Part shown: in pieces, positions 17,122-27,284 of the stretch | How the letters are laid out: each line of letters begins with the position of its first letter | Numbering within the stretch: the first letter of the stretch is position 1 | Source of the DNA: Bacteroidia bacterium | GTDB lineage: Bacteria > Bacteroidota > Bacteroidia > SpSt-205 | DNA: 50,786 nt | Assembly: GCA_025062295.1 (NCBI GenBank) | Contig: JANXAJ010000014.1 | Span: 1-50,786, forward strand | Direction of reading: 5' to 3' | Notes under the pieces: model-generated | Databases searched by the model: none | Seen by the model: the letters and a program-made list of their open reading frames with translations, nothing else | Told to the model about the DNA's origin: nothing | Position numbers and translations under genes: made by a program

Positions 17122-17685
17122 TTACCGCTCTTCCTCTTCTTCTTCCTCCTCCTCCCAGTCTTCTTCTTCCTCTTCCCAATCTTCTTCCCAATCTTCTTCA
17201 TCCCATTCTTCCTCATCCCAATCCTCTTCCCAGTCTTCTTCCTCCTCTTCCCAGTCTTCTTCTGCTTCGTCCCACTCTTCCTCTTCTTCCCACTCTTCTT
17301 CCTCTTCTTCTGTCTCTTCTGCTGGCTTCGCAAGCAAGAGTGCCTGCGCCTGTAAGTACTGTAAAGCATCCTCTATCGTTGTCATAAGCGTAAAAATTTC
17401 ATTTAGTCTTGAGAGAGAAAATACTGACTGAACCCCTGATGAGGGAGCCACCACTACCAGAGGACGTCCATTCTCCTCGAGAATCCGTCTCAGCAGCAAA
17501 AGGGCACTCAAAACCGAGCTGTCTAAAGCCTGAACAGGGGTCAAATCTACGATGATCCCCCCTGTCGTGGTATGGGCCAACACGGTGAATTGGGATTTGA
17601 GCTCTGGGGTATGAGCAGCATTTAGTTGAGCTTCTAAAGGGCGAAAGATAACCCCCTCTTCCAGAGTTTCTACCTCGTACCTCAT
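17122..17685 (-). CDS. STAS-domain protein with long Glu/Trp tail
   Basis: Residues 1-118 form a STAS domain of the anti-sigma factor antagonist type. The phosphorylatable loop reads ALDSSVLSAL, placing the switch serine at Ser56. STAS proteins are bound and phosphorylated by GHKL kinases and released by PP2C phosphatases. From residue 122 to 187 the protein is almost only Glu and Asp, with nine Trp residues at intervals of about four to seven (units such as EEEEDW, DEEEW). Such a tail is unlike any standard STAS protein. It could bind basic partners or metal ions, or interact through aromatic stickers. The gene lies in the same operon as the PP2C phosphatase and SiaB/SiaC genes and overlaps the MBL gene by 4 nt. 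Confidence 0.83.
   Translation of the reverse strand: MRYEVETLEEGVIFRPLEAQLNAAHTPELKSQFTVLAHTTTGGIIVDLTPVQALDSSVLSALLLLRRILEENGRPLVVVAPSSGVQSVFSLSRLNEIFTLMTTIEDALQYLQAQALLLAKPAEETEEEEEEWEEEEEWDEAEEDWEEEEEDWEEDWDEEEWDEEDWEEDWEEEEEDWEEEEEEEEER
17125..17322 (-). repeat. Low-complexity Glu/Trp-coding repeat
   Basis: The DNA is a pyrimidine-rich imperfect microsatellite on the plus strand (TCTTCC and CCCA units), encoding the acidic tail of the STAS protein. Unit gain or loss in multiples of three would change tail length without breaking the frame. Confidence 0.85.
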
Positions 17686-18323: not shown

Positions 18324-19174
18324 CAAGTGTAGGTGTAAAAGCCGCGGCCAGATTTGCGTCCGAGATAACCTGCTTGTACCATCTTCACGAGCAGGGGGCA
18401 AGGCGCATACCGAGGATCGCCCAGCCCCTCATGAAGCACTCGGAGAATAGCTAAACACACATCTAAGCCGATAAAATCGGCAAGCTCTAAAGGTCCCATT
18501 GGGTGATTCATCCCCAGCTTCATGATAGTGTCTATGGCTTCCCGAGTAGCCACGCCTTGGTAAAGAGCATAAATTGCTTCGTTAATCATAGGCATCAAAA
18601 TCCGATTGGAGACAAAGCCTGGAAAGTCCTCTACTACGACAGGTTCTTTCTCCAGCCCTTTTGCCCATTGAACAACGGCCTGGACAGTCTCCTCGCTGGT
18701 TTGAAGCCCTCTGATGACTTCTACCAGGCGCATAATCGGCACTGGATTCATAAAGTGCATCCCAATAAATCGTTCGGGACGATGAACATGAGCAGCTAAG
18801 CGGGTGATAGAGATAGAAGAGGTATTCGTGGCAAAGATCGCTGTCTCTGAGGCGTGAGCGCTGACGGTTCTCCACACAGAGATTTTAAGATCTACGTCTT
18901 CAGGGACAGCTTCTACGATAAGCTCAGCTTGACTCACAGCTAATGGAATCTCCTCATACAGCTTGATTCTTTTCAGCAGAGCCTCTTTCTCTTGAGGGGT
19001 AAGGATGCCTTTTCGCACCTGTCGATCTGCATTCTGTGAAACGATAGCAAGTGCGGTTTCCCATCGGCTTCTATCTACTTCTACCCAAGCAACAGGATGA
19101 CCATACTGGGCAAAAACATGGGCAATACCTGTGCCCATGGTACCTGCACCTAAAACCGCTACAGGGGCTTTCAT
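18323..19174 (-). CDS. 3-hydroxyacyl-CoA (3-hydroxybutyryl-CoA) dehydrogenase
   Basis: The 283-aa protein has the NAD site VLGAGTMGTGIAHVFA, the catalytic His in GMHFMNPVP, FPGFVSNRI, and the C-terminal MNHPMGPLELADFIGLD and GRKSGRGFY blocks. It oxidises 3-hydroxyacyl-CoA or makes 3-hydroxybutyryl-CoA from acetoacetyl-CoA. The single-domain length fits Hbd or PaaH rather than the fused FadB. It is embedded in the signalling operon, overlapping the upstream unknown gene by 4 nt, and no other beta-oxidation gene is adjacent. An acyl-CoA dehydrogenase lies at 31.5 kb. Confidence 0.9.
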   Translation of the reverse strand: MKAPVAVLGAGTMGTGIAHVFAQYGHPVAWVEVDRSRWETALAIVSQNADRQVRKGILTPQEKEALLKRIKLYEEIPLAVSQAELIVEAVPEDVDLKISVWRTVSAHASETAIFATNTSSISITRLAAHVHRPERFIGMHFMNPVPIMRLVEVIRGLQTSEETVQAVVQWAKGLEKEPVVVEDFPGFVSNRILMPMINEAIYALYQGVATREAIDTIMKLGMNHPMGPLELADFIGLDVCLAILRVLHEGLGDPRYAPCPLLVKMVQAGYLGRKSGRGFYTYT

Positions 19175-19755
19175 AGTTGAAAAGCTCTCTCTGCTACTGG
19201 TTGAGCTTGTCCGACGCTATATAACTGAAGGAGAAGATTCCCCCGCCAAGTCGTAGGTAGAGAATGTTCTATCTGCGAGGGACCTGTAGCTTCCAAAGGG
19301 AGCGTAAAAATCTCCTCACCAAATCGGTTATAAGCTCGCAGAATGTAGTTGCCAGCCCCATGAAAGGTGATTCGGACCACAGCGGATCGCCCTACATCTA
19401 CAGACATCTCAGGCGGTGCAGGGGGCACTCCCCATGGATAGCCCTCGTAAAGGACGACTCGGGAATGCTGGGGCGAAAGTCCTCCTAAAGTGAGTCGCAC
19501 CTTTTGACCAGCCTTGCCTTCTGGACAGCAAATCAGATAGTCCCGAGGAAGGCTCCACCGATCAATTGGGATTCGGTGAAGTACTCGCCATCCTACAGCT
19601 GTGCTCTCCTGCCACATCACCACCAGCGGACGATTTGCCGCCAGAAGCTGAAGCTGACCGCATAGCTGCAGCCCCTTCGGAAAGAGCCCTTTCCATACAT
19701 ACTGAACCCCACTAAGCGAGTCTGTAGAGAGAAGCACTATCGCTATCCATCCCAT
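19171..19755 (-). CDS. Exported protein of unknown function
   Basis: I do not recognise this 194-aa protein. The N-terminus MGWIAIVLLSTDSL is hydrophobic and may be a short signal peptide. The rest is predicted beta-rich, with alternating hydrophobic strands such as SAVVRITFHGAGNYILRAYNRFGEEIFTL, which resembles an immunoglobulin-like fold. It starts 11 nt after the second coiled-coil gene and overlaps the dehydrogenase by 4 nt, so it is expressed with the Sia-type genes. Confidence 0.7.
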   Translation of the reverse strand: MGWIAIVLLSTDSLSGVQYVWKGLFPKGLQLCGQLQLLAANRPLVVMWQESTAVGWRVLHRIPIDRWSLPRDYLICCPEGKAGQKVRLTLGGLSPQHSRVVLYEGYPWGVPPAPPEMSVDVGRSAVVRITFHGAGNYILRAYNRFGEEIFTLPLEATGPSQIEHSLPTTWRGNLLLQLYSVGQAQPVAERAFQL

Positions 19756-19766
19756 TGAGTAATCTC

Positions 19767-20237
19767 TTAGGAGCGCTTTTTGAGGGCCTCCATGAGTTCT
19801 ATGGCTCGGATTGGATCAAAAATAAGGTAATATAACATGAAGAGAATGATCACTGTCAATACGGCAATCATAATAACAAGGGCGATCTGAATGCGACTCA
19901 CCCGCTTGTCAATCAAAGTCTGCTCTTGAGAAATGCGTTGATAATTGTGAATGATTGCTTTTTGAGTTTTTTTCGCCTCCTCTTCTTTCTCTCGGAGAAG
20001 CTGATTCTGGCGCTCTAGTTCAGCATTCATTTCATCTAAGCGCCGTTGATTTCTATCGGCAATGCGAGTCAAGGTGCGGGCTTCTCCGAGAAGCTTCTCA
20101 TACTCCTCCACCATCTTTTTGTAAGAGATTTGCCACTCGCTCTCGGACATTGCGGTGCGGGCAAGGGTCAGCCGAGCCTCCTGAAGGAGGAGATTTTCCT
20201 CTGCGAAGAGGTCTTTGCCGCCAGCAGCCGCACTCAT
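19767..20237 (-). CDS. Coiled-coil single-TM protein, paralogue 2
   Basis: The 156-aa protein has a long cytoplasmic coiled coil (about residues 30-115, with heptads rich in Glu, Gln and Leu), one membrane helix (about 119-142) and a short charged tail. It shares architecture and spaced identities with the neighbouring 151-aa protein: E-N/T-x-LL/FL-QEAR near the start, a Y-x-x-M/L-VE-x-YE-x-LL core, and a Leu/Ile/Val-rich helix ending in MLYYL. I infer a tandem duplicate. It lacks a signal peptide, so it is a tail-anchored-like membrane protein. The start is 6 nt after a perfect -7 box. Confidence 0.8.
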   Translation of the reverse strand: MSAAAGGKDLFAEENLLLQEARLTLARTAMSESEWQISYKKMVEEYEKLLGEARTLTRIADRNQRRLDEMNAELERQNQLLREKEEEAKKTQKAIIHNYQRISQEQTLIDKRVSRIQIALVIMIAVLTVIILFMLYYLIFDPIRAIELMEALKKRS

Positions 20238-20265: not shown

Positions 20266-20721
20266 TCACTGAATGCCTCGCACCTTTTTCACGAAACTTA
20301 TCATCTGCTCAGTGTCAATAAAAAGGTAGTACATCATGAAAGCCACAATCACAAGCAAGACTGCAAAAAGCACAATCAGCATCATGCGAGTACGTCCCAT
20401 TCGGTCATAAAGGATATCTCGCTCTTGTGCTTTCTTATGGACTTCCTTTTGCTGATGTTGAATCTGACGCTCTAATCCTTCTACTTCACTGCTTAGGGCT
20501 TTTCGCTGGAGCTCAAGCTGAGCCCGAGCCTTCTCCAGCTTGGTCTCCAGTTGAGTGGCTTGATGAGTGAGCACTTGCACCACCTTCAGAAGGTTTTCAT
20601 AGTTTTCCACCAGCTGAGCATAGGCTTCTCTCCAATCTTGGGGCGTGAGTCCGCCTCGCTCTGCGCGCGCCCGTGCTTCTTCTAAAAAGGCTGTTTCTTC
20701 AACGAAGTATTGATCTCTCAT
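20266..20721 (-). CDS. Coiled-coil single-TM protein, paralogue 1
   Basis: The 151-aa protein consists of a coiled coil (about residues 35-110) with many Gln, Glu and Lys heptad positions, a membrane helix at about 113-135 (LIVLFAVLLVIVAFMMYYL) and a short C-terminal tail. It overlaps siaC-2 by 4 nt. No domain family is recognisable. With its duplicate downstream it is the only membrane component in this stretch besides the PP2C sensor, so it may be a membrane partner or output of the SiaB/SiaC switch. This is inference from position. Confidence 0.8.
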   Translation of the reverse strand: MRDQYFVEETAFLEEARARAERGGLTPQDWREAYAQLVENYENLLKVVQVLTHQATQLETKLEKARAQLELQRKALSSEVEGLERQIQHQQKEVHKKAQERDILYDRMGRTRMMLIVLFAVLLVIVAFMMYYLFIDTEQMISFVKKVRGIQ

Positions 20722-21092
20722 ACTGGCACGAGCTCAAAAGGGACATCTAAAAGCGCCTGATAATCCTGTCCTGTCTCCGCCATGTCTTCATCATCTGCAT
20801 CATAGTGCCAGCGAATCAGCACCCGATGCCCGTTCTTATGCATGCGCTCCAGCTTTCGGAAAATGTCCAATAGACACTTAGAAGAGCTTGTATTGAAATA
20901 CTCCAGCTGAAACTTGAATACTGTCTCCGAAAGAGGGGTCTTACTATATTCTTCCACCCAATCCAGCACCTTTCTATAAAATCCGATGGCATCTTCTGGG
21001 ATGCTTCGTCCCGTAATCTCAAATATGCCAAGGTCGGCATTGAGGATAACCTTAGGCGTTTTTGAAGTAGGCTCAATAACGAGGTTTCGCAT
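20718..21092 (-). CDS. SiaC family regulatory phosphoprotein (DUF1987), copy 2
   Basis: The 124-aa protein carries the SiaC signature: TPKVILN near the start, GRSIPEDAIGFY, EYFNTSSSK and the Asp/Glu-rich ending YDADDEDMAETGQDYQ. In Pseudomonas aeruginosa SiaC is phosphorylated by SiaB on Thr68 and dephosphorylated by the PP2C enzyme SiaA. The unphosphorylated form activates the cyclase SiaD. Counting here puts the NTSS threonine at residue 68 as well. It follows siaB-2 after 17 nt and overlaps the coiled-coil gene by 4 nt. A -7 box lies 8 nt before the start. Confidence 0.9.
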   Translation of the reverse strand: MRNLVIEPTSKTPKVILNADLGIFEITGRSIPEDAIGFYRKVLDWVEEYSKTPLSETVFKFQLEYFNTSSSKCLLDIFRKLERMHKNGHRVLIRWHYDADDEDMAETGQDYQALLDVPFELVPV

Positions 21093-21109: not shown

Positions 21110-21673
21110 TTACTTCTCAGGGATACGGGACACACGAGCCTCTAAGCTAAAGAAGGAATACCTGTCATTCACAGGATGAAAATCGTACCCCAGACGCTGA
21201 CCTGACTTCCGAGCAATGTCTATCATGCCTAAGCCTGCCGTTCCCTTTTCACTGAAGCCAGTACCTGTCAGAACTTCTTGATAAAGCTGCTTGAGTTCCT
21301 CTTTTGTAGCCCGATTGATGCGGTCTAATCGAGACTTGAGCTCTGGAATGCGATCATTCAGCACGTGGTTCCCTGTAATGATATAGTAATCTTTCTCCTC
21401 TCGTCCAATCATGAGGAGAGCCGTTTTATCCCGCACGGGGTTGGAGGGGTCTGTGGGGGGTAAAGCATCCAAATGATGATACACATTCTGCAAGCACTCC
21501 ACCATCACATTAAAGACTCGTTTCTTGACCTTTCTATCCTCTCCCTCCCCCTCTAACTTATTCTCTACCATCTGTAAAATAGAGGATACAAGGTCGGCGG
21601 TTACTTCCCCCTGATAGACAAAGATAATGTTATTAAGCTGCATGTTTTTATAGTAGCTATAAGTCATGCTCAT
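21110..21673 (-). CDS. SiaB family protein kinase, copy 2 (intact motifs)
   Basis: The 187-aa protein matches SiaB (GHKL-type Ser/Thr kinase). The N-box region reads VMVECLQNVYHH, with Asn63 and the two His at 66-67. The G-rich ATP-lid region reads EKGTAGLGMIDIARKSG at about 142-158. It ends FFSLEARV, as SiaB proteins do. It should phosphorylate a SiaC partner on Thr68 in the cytoplasm. It lies between the two siaC genes, 5 nt after siaC-1 and 17 nt before siaC-2. Compared with copy 1 it keeps the nucleotide-binding residues, so it is the more likely active kinase. Confidence 0.88.
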   Translation of the reverse strand: MSMTYSYYKNMQLNNIIFVYQGEVTADLVSSILQMVENKLEGEGEDRKVKKRVFNVMVECLQNVYHHLDALPPTDPSNPVRDKTALLMIGREEKDYYIITGNHVLNDRIPELKSRLDRINRATKEELKQLYQEVLTGTGFSEKGTAGLGMIDIARKSGQRLGYDFHPVNDRYSFFSLEARVSRIPEK

Positions 21674-21678
21674 AGGCT

Positions 21679-22062
21679 CTATGATTGGACTTTTACAGAA
21701 AGTTCTATTGGAAGGTTGAGGAGTGCTTGATAGTCTTGTCCTGTCTCTTCCATGTCTTCATCATCTTCATCATAGTACCACGTCACTCGTACCTCATGCC
21801 CCGCTGCATGAATAGCCTCTAATCGCTTGAGGACTTCAAGGATATTCTTTGAGCTGCTTGTGTTGAAATACTCCAAGTCAAATCGCACGTGGGTAACGGG
21901 GAGTGGCTGCTTTGAGTATTCTTCTAACCATGCGAAAATGGGTGTATAAAAACCTACAGAGTCCTCAGGAATACTTCTACCAGAAAATTCAAATATCCCA
22001 TTCTCTGGGTCTAATATGACCCGAGGAGTCTTGTGTGTAGACTCTATTCGTAGAGCTTCCAT
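21679..22062 (-). CDS. SiaC family regulatory phosphoprotein (DUF1987), copy 1
   Basis: The 127-aa protein is closely similar to copy 2 along its whole length. It has TPRVILD, the segment GRSIPEDSVGFY, EYFNTSSSK with the phosphoacceptor at Thr68, and YYDEDDEDMEETGQDYQ near the end. Both copies thus keep the phosphosite. It begins 5 nt after siaB-1 and ends 5 nt before siaB-2. Differences concentrate in the surface around residues 41-60 and the C-terminus, which would allow different partners. Confidence 0.9.
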   Translation of the reverse strand: MEALRIESTHKTPRVILDPENGIFEFSGRSIPEDSVGFYTPIFAWLEEYSKQPLPVTHVRFDLEYFNTSSSKNILEVLKRLEAIHAAGHEVRVTWYYDEDDEDMEETGQDYQALLNLPIELSVKVQS

Positions 22063-22067
22063 AGGCT

Positions 22068-22643
22068 TTATGAATTGTTTTTTCGGATTCTAGCCTCCAG
22101 TGAAAAAAAAGACTCAAAGTCATCCAAGTACTCAAAGTTGTAATGCAAGAAGTCATGCGATTTTCGGGCTAGGTCTAATATACTAATTGAAGGAACTCCT
22201 CCGATGTGGGGGGGAATACTGTGGGTGGCTTTTCCTTGAAGAAGATGATGGTAGGCATCTCGCAGCTCTTCAGAAGAGCAGGTATTTACCCAGTCGATGA
22301 AAGATTTGATAGCATACACTGAATCTCCTCGCACCCGGCGTCCCACACTTACAGCATATAAATAAGGTAGCTGGCGAACAAGTAAAACAGCACCGCCTCT
22401 CTCAACATCATCTCCTATGGTAAAGGATTCCACCATGATATTGAAGAGCTTCTTGCTAATGCGTCTATCTTCTCTAGAATCCTCTAGGCGATATTCTACA
22501 AGATTGAGTACGTCAACGATGAGATCCGGAGTTATAGGACCATTATATATAAAAACCACACTATTATCCAGCATGTTTCGGTATAGAGGATAAGCGTAGC
22601 TTAGGGCTGGCTCATGTAAGAGCTCGGACTCAGTAGCAACCAT
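22068..22643 (-). CDS. SiaB-like protein, copy 1, with lost ATP-binding motifs
   Basis: The 191-aa protein aligns with SiaB copy 2 at both ends: FIYNGPITPDLIVDVLNLVEYRLE, then KKLFNIMVES, later LDLARKS and FFSLEARI. The N-box is gone. Where copy 2 has ECLQNVYHH, this protein reads ESFTIGDDV, with about ten residues fewer afterwards. The Gly-rich lid GTAGLG is replaced by GGVPSIS. The frame is uninterrupted, so this is not a broken gene but a diverged one. I infer a pseudokinase that may bind SiaC without phosphorylating it. It follows the PP2C gene after 24 nt and has its own promoter boxes. Confidence 0.83.
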   Translation of the reverse strand: MVATESELLHEPALSYAYPLYRNMLDNSVVFIYNGPITPDLIVDVLNLVEYRLEDSREDRRISKKLFNIMVESFTIGDDVERGGAVLLVRQLPYLYAVSVGRRVRGDSVYAIKSFIDWVNTCSSEELRDAYHHLLQGKATHSIPPHIGGVPSISILDLARKSHDFLHYNFEYLDDFESFFSLEARIRKNNS

Positions 22644-22667: not shown

Positions 22668-25397
22668 TCATAAACGCAAACCTAAAACTGTAATATCGTC
22701 TGTAGGTGGTTTATCCCCCATCCATCCACGCAGTTCTTCTAAGAGCTTCTGATGCTGCTCGGCCATAGGTAGATGGACCCATGTCATGAGAAGTTCTCGA
22801 AACCGCCGATGAGAGAAGCGACGCTGCCCATCTGCACTAAACTGGTCTAAGTAGCCATCCGTATAGAGGTAGACTGCATCCCCGCTTTGGTAGGAAAAGG
22901 CATGAGTGGTAAAGCTTTTTACCTCATCCAACCAGAGGGCTCCTCCTAAACCTGTAGGGGCGCCAGGTACGAGAGACCAGCGTCCACTCTGGTACAAGAG
23001 TAGGGGACGATGAGCCCCTGCAAACCGAAGAAGACGGCGCTGGGGATCGATGCTGCACAGGGCTACATCCATTCCGTCCTGCATAGCTTCTTGTCCAGAG
23101 AGGAGCTGTCGCAGACGAGTATCCATGTATTGCAGAATAAGCGCAGGGTCGGTCAATTTTCGCTCATGCACCGCCGACTCAAGCAGAGTATACCCCAAAA
23201 AGGTCATAAATGCCCCTGGCACCCCATGCCCTGTACAGTCCACTACTGCGACTATTCGTTGTCCTTCCACTTCTCCGCACCAATAAAAGTCTCCCCCTAC
23301 TACATCCCGCAACCAATGCAGGACGAAGCTTTCAGGAAAAAGCGCTTGCACTCCTGCCTCCCCTATAAGAAGGGCTCCCTGGATCCGCCGAGCATAGGCA
23401 ATGCTCTCCATAATATCCCGATTCTTTTCCTCTAGCTCTCGCTTCTGCTCTTCTAAGACTTTACGAGCATGCTCTAAGCGAAGGTTCTGCAGATGAAGCT
23501 GTTCCTGGACCTGCCGCAATTCCGTAATGTCTTGCAGGAGAACAACCATCGTCTCTACCTCTCCGCCTGGTCCCACCTCAGGAATGCCTCGCACTGCCAT
23601 CCGCCGCATTCCATACACTGAAGGAAACCCTATCTCTGCAGACTGCACTTGGAGCGTGTCAAAAAGTTTGTGGATAAATTCCTCCCAAAACCGAACTTCC
23701 TCCAAAGAGAAGCCCACGGAATAAATTGTATTTCGGATATAGTGATTAGGCGAGTAGCCTGTATAGCGCTCAATCGTAGGATTCACGTAAAGAAAGCGCC
23801 CATCTCGGTCTGTCCGAAAAATAATGTCGGGCGAATTCTCTACGAGAGATTGGAATTTGAGGCGAGTCCGATATTGCTTCTCATACTCTACCTCCTCTGT
23901 AATGTCTCGTAGAATGAGAAGGATAGCTTCTATGCCAGGGGTAGAGAGATAATTACATCCGACCGCCTCTATCCAGAGAAGGTGTCCATCCTTATGAAAG
24001 TAGCGGAAGCGAATGGTGTGTGTAGAGCCCTCAGCGCTTAGAAGAGATTGGAAGTAGGCTCGGACTGCCTCTGCATCTGATTTGTCTACAGGACGGAAAA
24101 ATATTTGGAGCTCACTTTCTGAATAGCCCAATAGACGCTGGACACCAGGACTCAAGTAGCGGGGGCGACCTGTGGTGTCAAAAAATACGATTGCTTCCCG
24201 CAAATGAGCAACTACGATCTCCCATCGGTTCTGGGCTAAGGAGAGAAACCGCTCTACCCTCTGACGAGCCGATTCGGCATCCATGAGTTGGCGCTGAAGA
24301 TGCTCTTGGATTTCAGAGCTGGAGCGGAGGCGCTCTTCTTGCTCCTGTAGCGTTTGCTTTAGCATCAGAAGGGTGGATTCGTGTTTCTGCTGCTCTTGCA
24401 TTAGGTATTTCTGGCGCTCCAGCTCTTCTTGAAACAGATACCCCACTGCAAAGAAGGGGAGGAGTATGTCAGCGGCGGTTTGCTGGAAAGTATCCCATTC
24501 TGAAAAGGCTGCTAAGTCCCAAACGCCTCGGATGCTATCGCCTGCGATGACTGGAAGCACAGCCACTGCCTGTGGCGGGGCTTTTCCGAGGGCAGAGAGA
24601 GCCTCTAAATAGCCCTGTGGTAGGACGGAGAGCCATAGGGGTCGTCCTTCGCGAGCCACCTGGCCAATCCAGCCTTCTCCCATCGCAAAAATCTCGGGCG
24701 AACCCGTTGGATAGGCGTAGCTGTAAATGCGGCGGAGTTTATCTCCTTCTATTCGGTAAAAGGCCCCTAAAGATGCTCCCACCGCTCTGAGGAAAATAGG
24801 ACCAGCAGCTGAAAGGTAGCCTTCAGGCGAAGTGCTCTGCTGACTCAGACGGATAAAGGAGAGTGCTTCTTTCAGCAGAGCCTCGCGAAAATTGGCTTGT
24901 CGCTGAGTGTGCGTAACCACTTCTGTGAGCTGTAGGGCAAGCCGTCCTAGCGCAGGGGGCCATTCCGCTGCTATAGGGGAAAGGCTTTGCCGCTGATGTC
25001 GTATTACCTGTTGGATAAACTCTATGGCTTCCGACAAATCATCCGCTGCTTGCCAGATTTCAGCTGCTTCGCTGGGAAGAAGAGCTAAAGGTCGTCCCTG
25101 ATCAGACCCTTCCCAAAGTAAATGCCGAAGCCGGTCCCGAATCCGAAGAAGGGGACGCGCAATCCGAGCCCACCACCATAGCCCCACTCCAATAGAGACC
25201 CCAAGAAGGACGAGAAGCATACCATAGGCCCACAAGGACAATGCCCTGTCCCATCTTACCCATTCTACACTTCCGCTCAAAAGCATCATATCCCGCTGCG
25301 TCACGATCCATACCCCCACTAGGATAAGGAAGCCGACCGACCCTACAAGTACCGCTAATCCAAATCCTAAATACTCAGCGATGCCCCATCGCCGCAT
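22668..25397 (-). CDS. Membrane GAF-PAS-PAS sensor with SpoIIE/PP2C phosphatase domain (SiaA-like)
   Basis: The 909-aa protein has two N-terminal membrane helices (about 11-33 and 55-77) with a short outside loop and a HAMP-like linker. A GAF-like domain follows (about 170-330), then a coiled coil, a PAS domain (about 390-500), a second PAS domain (about 515-635), another coiled coil and a C-terminal PP2C domain. The PP2C metal motifs are DVVGGDFYW, VDCTGHGVPGAFM and YLYTDGYLDQF. Such phosphatases reverse GHKL-kinase phosphorylation of STAS or SiaC proteins. Encoded just before the siaB/siaC genes, it is the likely SiaC phosphatase, and it could also act on the STAS protein downstream. Its start overlaps the PEBP stop by one base. 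Confidence 0.9.
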   Translation of the reverse strand: MRRWGIAEYLGFGLAVLVGSVGFLILVGVWIVTQRDMMLLSGSVEWVRWDRALSLWAYGMLLVLLGVSIGVGLWWWARIARPLLRIRDRLRHLLWEGSDQGRPLALLPSEAAEIWQAADDLSEAIEFIQQVIRHQRQSLSPIAAEWPPALGRLALQLTEVVTHTQRQANFREALLKEALSFIRLSQQSTSPEGYLSAAGPIFLRAVGASLGAFYRIEGDKLRRIYSYAYPTGSPEIFAMGEGWIGQVAREGRPLWLSVLPQGYLEALSALGKAPPQAVAVLPVIAGDSIRGVWDLAAFSEWDTFQQTAADILLPFFAVGYLFQEELERQKYLMQEQQKHESTLLMLKQTLQEQEERLRSSSEIQEHLQRQLMDAESARQRVERFLSLAQNRWEIVVAHLREAIVFFDTTGRPRYLSPGVQRLLGYSESELQIFFRPVDKSDAEAVRAYFQSLLSAEGSTHTIRFRYFHKDGHLLWIEAVGCNYLSTPGIEAILLILRDITEEVEYEKQYRTRLKFQSLVENSPDIIFRTDRDGRFLYVNPTIERYTGYSPNHYIRNTIYSVGFSLEEVRFWEEFIHKLFDTLQVQSAEIGFPSVYGMRRMAVRGIPEVGPGGEVETMVVLLQDITELRQVQEQLHLQNLRLEHARKVLEEQKRELEEKNRDIMESIAYARRIQGALLIGEAGVQALFPESFVLHWLRDVVGGDFYWCGEVEGQRIVAVVDCTGHGVPGAFMTFLGYTLLESAVHERKLTDPALILQYMDTRLRQLLSGQEAMQDGMDVALCSIDPQRRLLRFAGAHRPLLLYQSGRWSLVPGAPTGLGGALWLDEVKSFTTHAFSYQSGDAVYLYTDGYLDQFSADGQRRFSHRRFRELLMTWVHLPMAEQHQKLLEELRGWMGDKPPTDDITVLGLRL

Positions 25398-25870
25398 CAG
25401 CGCTTATGACGCTTGTAGGTAACAAAAGTCTGGGCGTGTCCTATCACCTTATCGCCCATTAGCGACCGTATCTTCTCCCAAGAAACTGCTCCATTCAAGG
25501 GGAGAGGTTTCTTCAGTGCATATACTTCTGCTACGTACCGATGTGGTGAATCCCTCACAGGGGGGCATGGACCACCATATCCTACTTTCCCAAAGTCATT
25601 ATAGCCTTCCTGAACATCTCGGCTTCCTCGTCCGATTTGTGAGTTCTTGATATTGTAAGCTATCCAGTGAATGAAGGTATCCGCCGGAGCATCAGGGTCA
25701 TAAAGGCGGAGAACATATACTTGAGTCTCTTTTGGACTATTGCCCCATTGGATCAGCGGGGGGATGTCTCCTCCGTCGCAAGTGTGTTCTATTCCTATTT
25801 CTGCTCCGGGGGAGTAGTCCCCAATTTTGACCCACATCTGTCCCCATAGAAAAAGCGTCATGAGACTCAT
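25397..25870 (-). CDS. YbhB/YbcL (PEBP) family exported protein
   Basis: This PEBP protein shows IEHTCDGGDIPPLIQW, the ligand-site segment LRLYDPDAPADTFIHWIAYNI, and GYGGPCPP followed by HRY. The bacterial family is of uncertain function, although the eukaryotic relatives inhibit Raf kinase. The start at 25870 gives an ATGA overlap with the cheB stop and a short hydrophobic leader (MSLMTLFLWG). The open frame extends to 25897. It sits between cheB and the PP2C gene. Confidence 0.85.
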   Translation of the reverse strand: MSLMTLFLWGQMWVKIGDYSPGAEIGIEHTCDGGDIPPLIQWGNSPKETQVYVLRLYDPDAPADTFIHWIAYNIKNSQIGRGSRDVQEGYNDFGKVGYGGPCPPVRDSPHRYVAEVYALKKPLPLNGAVSWEKIRSLMGDKVIGHAQTFVTYKRHKR

Positions 25871-26454
25871 ACCGACAAAGTTAAGGCTTGGAGGCACACT
25901 TTGACGAGAGACTCACGGCGGAAACGAACCCTTGGTTCAAAAAGATTAAGGGCTGCTTCGGGCATAGTTGGAATTTCTGCATCGGAGGGCTCTTGGACAG
26001 CAGTAAAGTAACCCGCTTGATGCATAAGGTACATTCCATACGCTCCGTCTCGATTCGCTCCAGAGAGGAGAGCCGCTCCAGCTCGCTTCCAGCGAGCTCG
26101 CACCACAGACTCTAAAAGAACATCTATGCTTGGACGAGAAAAATGAACGGGTTCCTCTACAGATAGGCTGAAATAGCCTTCCGCTTCAACTAAAAGATGG
26201 TAATCGGCGGGTGCAATATAGACATGTCCCCCCTGAATGACCGTCTTGTCATCTGGCTCACTCATTTCCCATCCTTTTAGGTAACCTATTGCATCTATCA
26301 TACCCATCCGAGGAGAGCGTAAGCGATGAAGACATAGGACAATAGCTACATCTGAGTGATAAGGCATCTGATGAAGAAAGCTACGGATAGGATTGAAACT
26401 GCCGGCTGAGCCTCCCATCAGCCATAGATATACTTCCCTGCCCTGTGGCTTCAT
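25867..26454 (-). CDS. Stand-alone CheB methylesterase domain protein
   Basis: The 195-aa protein is only the catalytic domain of CheB. The nucleophile is in MGGSAGS (Ser16), the His in CLHR, and the Asp in LLSGANRDGAYGM. No receiver domain precedes it, so it cannot be controlled by CheA phosphotransfer in the usual way. CheB demethylates or deamidates glutamyl side chains of receptors. It overlaps cheR and the PEBP gene by 4 nt each. No chemoreceptor, CheA or CheW gene is in the window, so its target is open. It may modify the PP2C sensor or one of the coiled-coil proteins, but nothing in the sequence shows this. Confidence 0.87.
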   Translation of the reverse strand: MKPQGREVYLWLMGGSAGSFNPIRSFLHQMPYHSDVAIVLCLHRLRSPRMGMIDAIGYLKGWEMSEPDDKTVIQGGHVYIAPADYHLLVEAEGYFSLSVEEPVHFSRPSIDVLLESVVRARWKRAGAALLSGANRDGAYGMYLMHQAGYFTAVQEPSDAEIPTMPEAALNLFEPRVRFRRESLVKVCLQALTLSV

Positions 26455-27284
26455 CGCCGTTTGCGATAAATGCGTTCTACATCATTTATTGCCGCAAGAC
26501 GCTTGGCAGCTGTACACCAGAAAAGCGATTCCTTCGTCCCTATCATGAGGATTCCTCCGGTTACGAGACTCTCCACAAGCTTCGTTACAACGAGGTCCTG
26601 AAGAGCTGGCGTAAAGTAAATCAAAAGGTTCCTACATAGGATAATCTCAAATTCCTCAAAAGGTGCCTCCGTAACGATGTTATGCTTTAGAAATCTCACA
26701 TTCTTCAGAAGGGTTTTATCAAATACAAGCTCGTTGCCCTCCTCTTGTACATACTTTTCAAAAGGTATAGTGGGGAATACCTGATGAAAATTCTGCTTAT
26801 AAAGCCTTTTCAAACGGATAGGGTATCTTGCTGATTGGGCTTTTTCTAAAGATACTTCGTCTATGTCTGTGGCATAAATTTGAGCTCTTTCATAGAGATT
26901 AGATTCCTGAAGGAGGATAGCCATAGAAAGCACCTCTTCGCCTGTGGAAGCGCCTACATGCCAAATCCGAATCTCTGCCAAGCTAGAAAAAAAGGATAGA
27001 GCTTGCAGTCTAAGAGCAACCCATGCTGGCGGATCTCGGAAAAGCTCGGTTGTGGAGACCGTGATTTCGTTGATGAAGTACTTGATGTACTCTGGCTGGG
27101 TAAGGAGCCGGTGATTGAGGAGCGCAAGGGTAGGGAGTCCGTACTTCTTCATTACAGACCCTAGTCGTCTCTTGAGGGAGGCAGGAGCATAGCCGCTAAA
27201 GTCCAGTCCATATTGGGTGAGCATAATCTGCCTGAATTGCTCTAATTCAGCATCGGAGACTTCTGGAAGTAAATCGGCTAGCAT
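26451..27284 (-). CDS. CheR-type protein-glutamate methyltransferase
   Basis: The 277-aa protein has the N-terminal CheR helical domain (LKRRLGSVMKKYG) and the TELFRD segment. The SAM site is HVGASTGEEVLSMAI, with ATDID after it, and the C-terminal CRNLLIYF completes the pattern. CheR methylates glutamates on receptors. It is the first gene of the long operon and overlaps cheB by 4 nt. A near-match -7 box lies 5 nt upstream. CheR/CheB pairs away from chemotaxis genes are known in hybrid sensory proteins, and here the two are separate polypeptides. Confidence 0.9.
   Translation of the reverse strand: MLADLLPEVSDAELEQFRQIMLTQYGLDFSGYAPASLKRRLGSVMKKYGLPTLALLNHRLLTQPEYIKYFINEITVSTTELFRDPPAWVALRLQALSFFSSLAEIRIWHVGASTGEEVLSMAILLQESNLYERAQIYATDIDEVSLEKAQSARYPIRLKRLYKQNFHQVFPTIPFEKYVQEEGNELVFDKTLLKNVRFLKHNIVTEAPFEEFEIILCRNLLIYFTPALQDLVVTKLVESLVTGGILMIGTKESLFWCTAAKRLAAINDVERIYRKRR

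Follow-up and report, generated by a model that had tools for sequence, protein, structure and literature searches.

The SiaB1 operon

We begin by considering the genes that surround SiaB1, a member of the SiaB family (DUF6272), in the window, i.e., the whole stretch of 50,786 nucleotides from a Bacteroidia bacterium that was analyzed. On the minus strand, a tight run of genes encodes, in order, CheR, CheB, a PEBP-like protein, a SpoIIE phosphatase, SiaB1, SiaC1, SiaB2, SiaC2 and two coiled-coil proteins, CC1 and CC2, and from the phosphatase to CC2 the intergenic gaps do not exceed 28 bases. The head of the operon is a CheR-type methyltransferase (26451 to 27284; Pfam CheR, 124 bits), whose synteny extends to the congeners and to three further genomes (G115, G116, G117), and the next gene encodes a stand-alone, likewise syntenic, CheB-type methylesterase (25867 to 26454; Pfam CheB_methylest, 121 bits). 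The phosphatase (22668 to 25397; Pfam SpoIIE, 87.5 bits) is SiaA-like with a GAF-PAS-PAS-SpoIIE/PP2C arrangement; its score of 192.7 bits against the NCBIfam model prot_phos_SiaA, which comes from the phosphatase domain alone, is below the cut-off. From its domains, this protein is predicted to be both the SiaC-P phosphatase and the sensor of the system.

Downstream of SiaB1 (22068 to 22643) follow SiaC1 (21679 to 22062; Pfam SiaC, 142 bits), SiaB2 (21110 to 21673; DUF6272, 142 bits) and SiaC2 (20718 to 21092; Pfam SiaC, 144.5 bits), all on the minus strand. Both SiaC (DUF1987) proteins, the phosphoprotein partners, have an intact NTSSSK phosphosite that is invariant in 18 of 18 genomes and aligns with T68 of P. 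aeruginosa SiaC, and SiaB2 has all three of its kinase motifs intact (ECLQN, TGN and GTAGLG). CC1 (20266 to 20721) and CC2 (19767 to 20237), each a coiled coil with a C-terminal hydrophobic segment, are found in 11 of 11 congeners. The combination of a PP2C phosphatase, SiaB and SiaC in one operon is that of SiaABCD, and the adjacency of SiaB to SiaC/DUF1987 genes and a SpoIIE/PP2C phosphatase is shared with P. aeruginosa. Here, unlike in P. aeruginosa, SiaC is duplicated and one of the two SiaB copies is without its motifs.

Several other genes of the same genome were noted. At the end of the operon (19171 to 19755) lies a fast-evolving protein with a median dN of 0.67 and a dN/dS of 0.29, the highest among the genes compared, and with no match in NCBIfam. 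Further along (17122 to 17685), a STAS-domain protein has a tail of about 60 residues that are almost only E, D and W, which is kept in all nine congeners with contigs that include the gene. A second, intact SiaB-SiaC-coiled-coil unit is located on another contig (G000:C34; L100, 9461 to 10918), with the coiled-coil motif RMGDRLQ. One further SiaB candidate (G000:C27, E-value 0.08) is actually IspF.

Loss of the nucleotide motifs in SiaB1

The SiaB1 gene is an open reading frame of 191 residues that runs from an ATG to its stop with no interruption, and the landmarks of the fold named in an earlier note on this DNA (FNIMVES, LDLARKS, FFSLEAR) are all found in it. It scores 45.9 bits against Pfam DUF6272, above the gathering score of 26.6, and 73.2 bits against the NCBIfam model SiaB_fam_kinase (NF038262), below the curated cut-off of 85, which SiaB2 passes with 170 bits. 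In an end-to-end alignment the two paralogs share 32% identity. The AlphaFold2 model of SiaB1 (mean pLDDT 87.7, pTM 0.81) has P. aeruginosa SiaB (PDB accession code: 6kko, chain A) as its closest fold in the PDB, with TM-scores of 0.71/0.79 and a probability of 1.00, and the same structure is closest to the model of SiaB2 (pLDDT 79.6). According to the prediction, SiaB1 retains the SiaB fold, with an N-box helix that stops early.

The earlier note had described SiaB1 as missing the N-box, about ten residues after it, and the Gly-rich lid. Part of the first statement stands: the alignment places ECLQNVYHHLDALPPTDPSNPV of SiaB2 opposite ESFT, a 13-residue gap and IGDDV of SiaB1, so that ECLQN becomes ESFTI with the gap, the Asn and the residues following it are lost, and the Glu is retained. 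The deletion is real and is longer than was estimated, 13 residues. The lid is lost as described: GTAGLGMIDIARKS of SiaB2 is opposite GGVPSISILDLARKS of SiaB1, with a 5-residue insertion just before, so that GTAGLG becomes GGVPSIS, and the loss of the motif is fixed in 11 of 11 SiaB1 sequences of the genus. A third lost motif is added to these two, the TGN turn, which is GRR in SiaB1. The set that serves Mg-ATP, namely the N-box Asn, the TGN Asn and the Gly-rich lid, is missing in all 11 SiaB1 proteins.

Is this loss confined to the motifs? We compare SiaB1 with 114 other SiaB domains, a set that came from similarity searches rather than from random sampling of the family, and that leaves out the copies of the SiaB1 clade and three broken copies of the family f7 (see below). 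In this set N63 is present in 114, N102 in 113 and G149, the last Gly of the lid, in 114 of the domains. Eighteen positions are conserved in at least 85% of the set, 10 within the three motifs and 8 elsewhere; SiaB1 has lost 8 of the 10 and 0 of the 8 (hypergeometric p about 0.001, with motif windows set by the GHKL boxes and with the TGN turn as the G1-box equivalent by our own assignment). Read from these alignments, the loss targets the nucleotide pocket, and its fixation throughout the genus sets it apart from a chance event.

P. aeruginosa SiaB (PA0171; PDB accession code: 6kko), the SiaB of SiaABCD, shares with SiaB1 the fold, the family and a predicted catalytic Glu, and differs in having an intact N-box, a TGN-type turn, a Gly lid and a proven SiaC kinase activity. 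The Glu in question is E61, catalytic by prediction (PMC7647112), and the alignment to 6kko matches it with the N-box Glu of SiaB1. This residue, E72, is kept in 11 of 11 SiaB1 proteins and in 113 of the 114 other domains, which would be expected if SiaB1 were still an enzyme, with altered nucleotide binding or a different reaction that proceeds through the Glu. Three nucleotide motifs that are broken together, including the positions of N63, N102 and G149, and the 13-residue deletion speak against such an enzyme, and the Glu may persist because it has a structural role or touches the threonine of SiaC. We regard a remaining enzymatic function as improbable, keeping in mind that some so-called pseudokinases elsewhere turned out to be active. 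From the motifs, SiaB1 is very probably catalytically inactive.

At the position of N102 in the TGN turn of SiaB2, Arg takes the place of Asn in G114, two genomes of family f7 and the genus itself, all of them without the N-box Asn, and Arg is found at this position in none of the SiaB proteins with an intact N-box. The Arg could possibly fill the emptied nucleotide pocket.

Conservation of SiaB1

The next question is whether such a gene is an artifact or a relic. The genus is a group of uncultured Bacteroidia, whose close relatives with named records are metagenome-assembled genomes of Bacteroidia. All 10 of the 10 congeners examined carry the syntenic operon with identical SiaB1 losses, so that three lost motifs and an intact frame are seen in 11 of 11 SiaB1 genes of the genus. 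One of these genomes is a single contig (G006, KatS3mg025). An assembly or frameshift error is ruled out by the concordance of eleven independent assemblies, one of them single-contig.

The possibility that SiaB1 is a decaying duplicate heading for loss draws on its rate of evolution: it is the faster-evolving of the two SiaB copies, with 61-76% identity between congeners as compared to 95-98% for SiaB2. Its selection, however, is not that of a dying gene. The median dN/dS of SiaB1 is about 0.11, like that of CheB, CheR and SpoIIE of the same operon, with SiaB2, SiaC1 and SiaC2 near 0.02, all values being based on few computable pairs because dS is saturated; by this comparison SiaB1 is an ordinary constrained gene. 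Long stretches outside the pocket, e.g., KKLFNIMVE and RQLPY, are invariant, no frameshift or stop is found in the 11 genomes, and the SiaB1 clade persists across two orders. With the dN/dS and the fixed motifs we reject a decaying pseudogene, and the decay reading as a whole is hardly credible. The nucleotide residues are lost and the rest is conserved under selection, as in a pseudokinase paralog; that SiaB1 is conserved with a broken pocket is, from the alignments, nearly certain.

The proposal in the earlier note, a pseudokinase beside an active kinase, is well supported at the sequence level by the selective motif loss, the purifying selection, the synteny in 18 genomes, the retained predicted fold and the intact SiaB2. 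The part concerning activity we infer from the same motifs: SiaB1 would neither bind ATP productively nor phosphorylate.

A model for the function of SiaB1

We turn our attention to what a SiaB protein of this kind may do. SiaB1 is probably a working "dead kinase", one that regulates its partners by binding instead of by phosphorylation. The SiaB-SiaC complex of P. aeruginosa is tight, has a 2:2 composition and dissociates once SiaC is phosphorylated (PMC7647112), and phosphorylated SiaC is unable to bind SiaD (PMC8457831). As phosphorylation precedes release in that system, a non-phosphorylating SiaB1 would hold SiaC without release, and we therefore favor the view that SiaB1 serves as a sink or sets a threshold, with SiaC1 as its most likely target. 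The suggestion of the earlier note, that SiaB1 could titrate SiaC or set a threshold, is plausible by this analogy.

In the model, a SiaB-SiaC pair inside the partner-switch operon would have been duplicated in tandem long ago and given rise to SiaB1, in which the N-box Glu and the predicted SiaB fold persist but the elements that hold Mg-ATP (the Asn, the TGN turn and the lid of glycines) are lost. The protein would still dock unphosphorylated SiaC, most likely SiaC1, and would form a stable, ATP-independent SiaC sink in competition with SiaB2 and the effector CC2; a signal would pass only if the SiaC dephosphorylated by SpoIIE exceeds the capacity of SiaB1. We lean slightly toward this reading of SiaB1 as a conserved pseudokinase and a non-releasing SiaC sink; taken singly, the step that SiaB1 binds SiaC as a sink is about an even proposition. 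The model has its difficulties. The retention of the N-box Glu, and likewise of the ARKS segment, could point to residual or altered chemistry, and SiaB1 evolves much faster than its putative partners (median dN 0.25, against 0.05 for SiaC1 and 0.04 for SiaC2), a rate that does not demand a tight, conserved SiaC interface.

A further difficulty is that the same sequence facts are accounted for by another arrangement, in which SiaB1 is mainly a heterodimer partner of SiaB2: it would replace one subunit of the dimer and damp, gate or redirect the SiaB2 kinase, and would itself be no SiaC sink. The two genes are two apart and their products share a fold, the complex of P. aeruginosa SiaB with SiaC is 2:2 (PMC7647112), and in Mycobacterium smegmatis the non-kinase RsbW3 binds RsbW1, the proposed effect being inactivation of RsbW1 in a heterodimer (PMC7693655). 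The strong divergence of SiaB1 and SiaB2, on the other hand, may favor separate homodimers, and each SiaB is constantly paired with its own following SiaC, which fits a SiaB1-SiaC1 unit at least equally well. Judged by these analogies, the heterodimer is the main rival of the sink and a serious one, and we consider it rather unlikely.

The nearest precedent of SiaB1 is the RsbW3/RsbW1 pair of the M. smegmatis SigF switch (PMC7693655), where RsbW3, an anti-sigma/kinase paralog of the GHKL fold without kinase activity, regulates by binding beside a kinase-active paralog; SiaB1 is likened to it from its sequence. The RsbW proteins control a sigma factor via STAS antagonists, and SiaB1 differs from them in its family, SiaB/DUF6272, where the partners are SiaC proteins. 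Non-kinase paralogs are already known in RsbW-type switches, to which the SiaB family would add a new case. No description of a SiaB pseudokinase and no paper on DUF6272 were found in the literature searched, a body that has most subscription journals outside its scope.

Among the distant fold matches of the SiaB1 model are RetS and DivL, histidine kinases that are usually termed non-canonical or inactive. They resemble SiaB1 in reusing a GHKL-type ATPase fold for regulation by protein contact; they differ in being two-component histidine kinases, with only distant structural similarity to SiaB1.

Output of the switch

In P. aeruginosa the output protein is SiaD, whose SiaC-binding motif includes R80-I81-S82-D83-R84-Y85-Q86 (PMC8457831). 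A GGDEF domain (PF00990), as a SiaD-type effector would have, is not found in the genome analyzed here or in three related ones (G000, G006, G116, G117) in a search that is positive in 8 of 14 control genomes, and without a GGDEF match in these four genomes c-di-GMP is an unlikely output. CC2 has the segment RIADRNQ, which resembles RISDRYQ of SiaD, and the single CC proteins of the second order that has SiaB1-type genes (see below) have K(I/V/T)(S/A)DK-type versions of the motif. Searches of the PDB with the sequences of two of the coiled-coil proteins give no match. Based on the motif, CC2, a membrane-anchored coiled coil, is likely the SiaC effector and the output. The difference from P. 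aeruginosa SiaABCD then includes the effector: no GGDEF protein is found, and a small membrane-anchored coiled coil is the likely substitute. This points to coiled-coil membrane proteins, and not diguanylate cyclases, as the targets of SiaC switches in Bacteroidia.

In CC1 the motif is replaced across the congeners by HQATQLE or a closely similar sequence, and this protein appears to have lost the role of a SiaC effector or gained another. The inactive-looking SiaB copy is paralleled by an inactive-looking effector copy, CC1 beside CC2.

Origin and parallel losses

We searched 395 genomes of the class with profiles, and the result is a clean break: a SiaB1-type gene occurs in 18, comprising the 11 congeners and seven genomes from a single other order. 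Beyond the genus within its own order, none is found in G011 and G012, both incomplete genomes, and a phylum-wide search gives no additional SiaB1-type gene. In a tree of 67 domains the 18 SiaB1-type proteins form one clade (support 100/100), apart from the SiaB2-type copies located downstream of them. The gene order SiaB1-SiaC1-SiaB2-SiaC2 is kept in 18 of 18 genomes, and a single CC gene follows SiaC2 in five of the seven genomes of the other order (G114, G117, G100, G115, G116).

The upstream SiaB of these seven genomes gives a graded series of losses. The N-box Asn is kept in G059 and G102, with the lid GLSSLG; in G117 the lid is GLTNLA; in G100, G115 and G116 the Asn is kept, the turn is TGS and the lid is GLT.LG; and in G114 the Asn is lost, with TGR and the lid NLTKLG.

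A second case is the family f7, which has a SiaB-SiaC-SiaB-SiaC array where the second SiaB is without the Asn and the lid in four genomes (L174, 7043 to 7609; L175, 1274 to 1828; and genomes G149 and G206, at L180 and L181). The broken copies read ECLEA or ECLET at the N-box and NADLA or NSELA at the lid. On the alignments and the tree, motif loss in SiaB arose independently at least twice. A third such event may have taken place in G114, as its placement beside the genus is weakly supported (81/52).

We tentatively generalize from these lineages, with some doubt, that tandem SiaB-SiaC switches in Bacteroidia have repeatedly made one SiaB a pseudokinase (the SiaB1 clade in two orders, and f7), yielding a recurrent two-arm switch, one arm ATP-dependent and the other ATP-independent, that would control membrane-anchored coiled-coil effectors and not c-di-GMP. 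The usual scheme of a partner switch has a single kinase, phosphatase and antagonist. In the operon described here, a kinase copy that has been retained for a long time no longer has its ATP site yet maintains its position, fold and partner gene, and the same is seen in a second lineage. The lineages with graded loss are natural intermediates, with small soluble proteins, for testing what stays useful in a former kinase.

Some arrangements of the relatives are worth recording. In G017 and G099, the SiaC that follows the broken f7 SiaB has FSSSSAK versus FNSTSAK. In G063, also of f7 (L176, 5458 to 6870), one SiaB with Ser at the N-box Asn precedes two SiaC genes, an arrangement that would result if the second SiaB had disappeared and its SiaC had stayed. 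In Bacteroidales (L060 to L063), SiaB is a fused two-domain protein of about 370 residues, whose second domain has the N-box Asn and SKEAGLG versus KGGAGLG.
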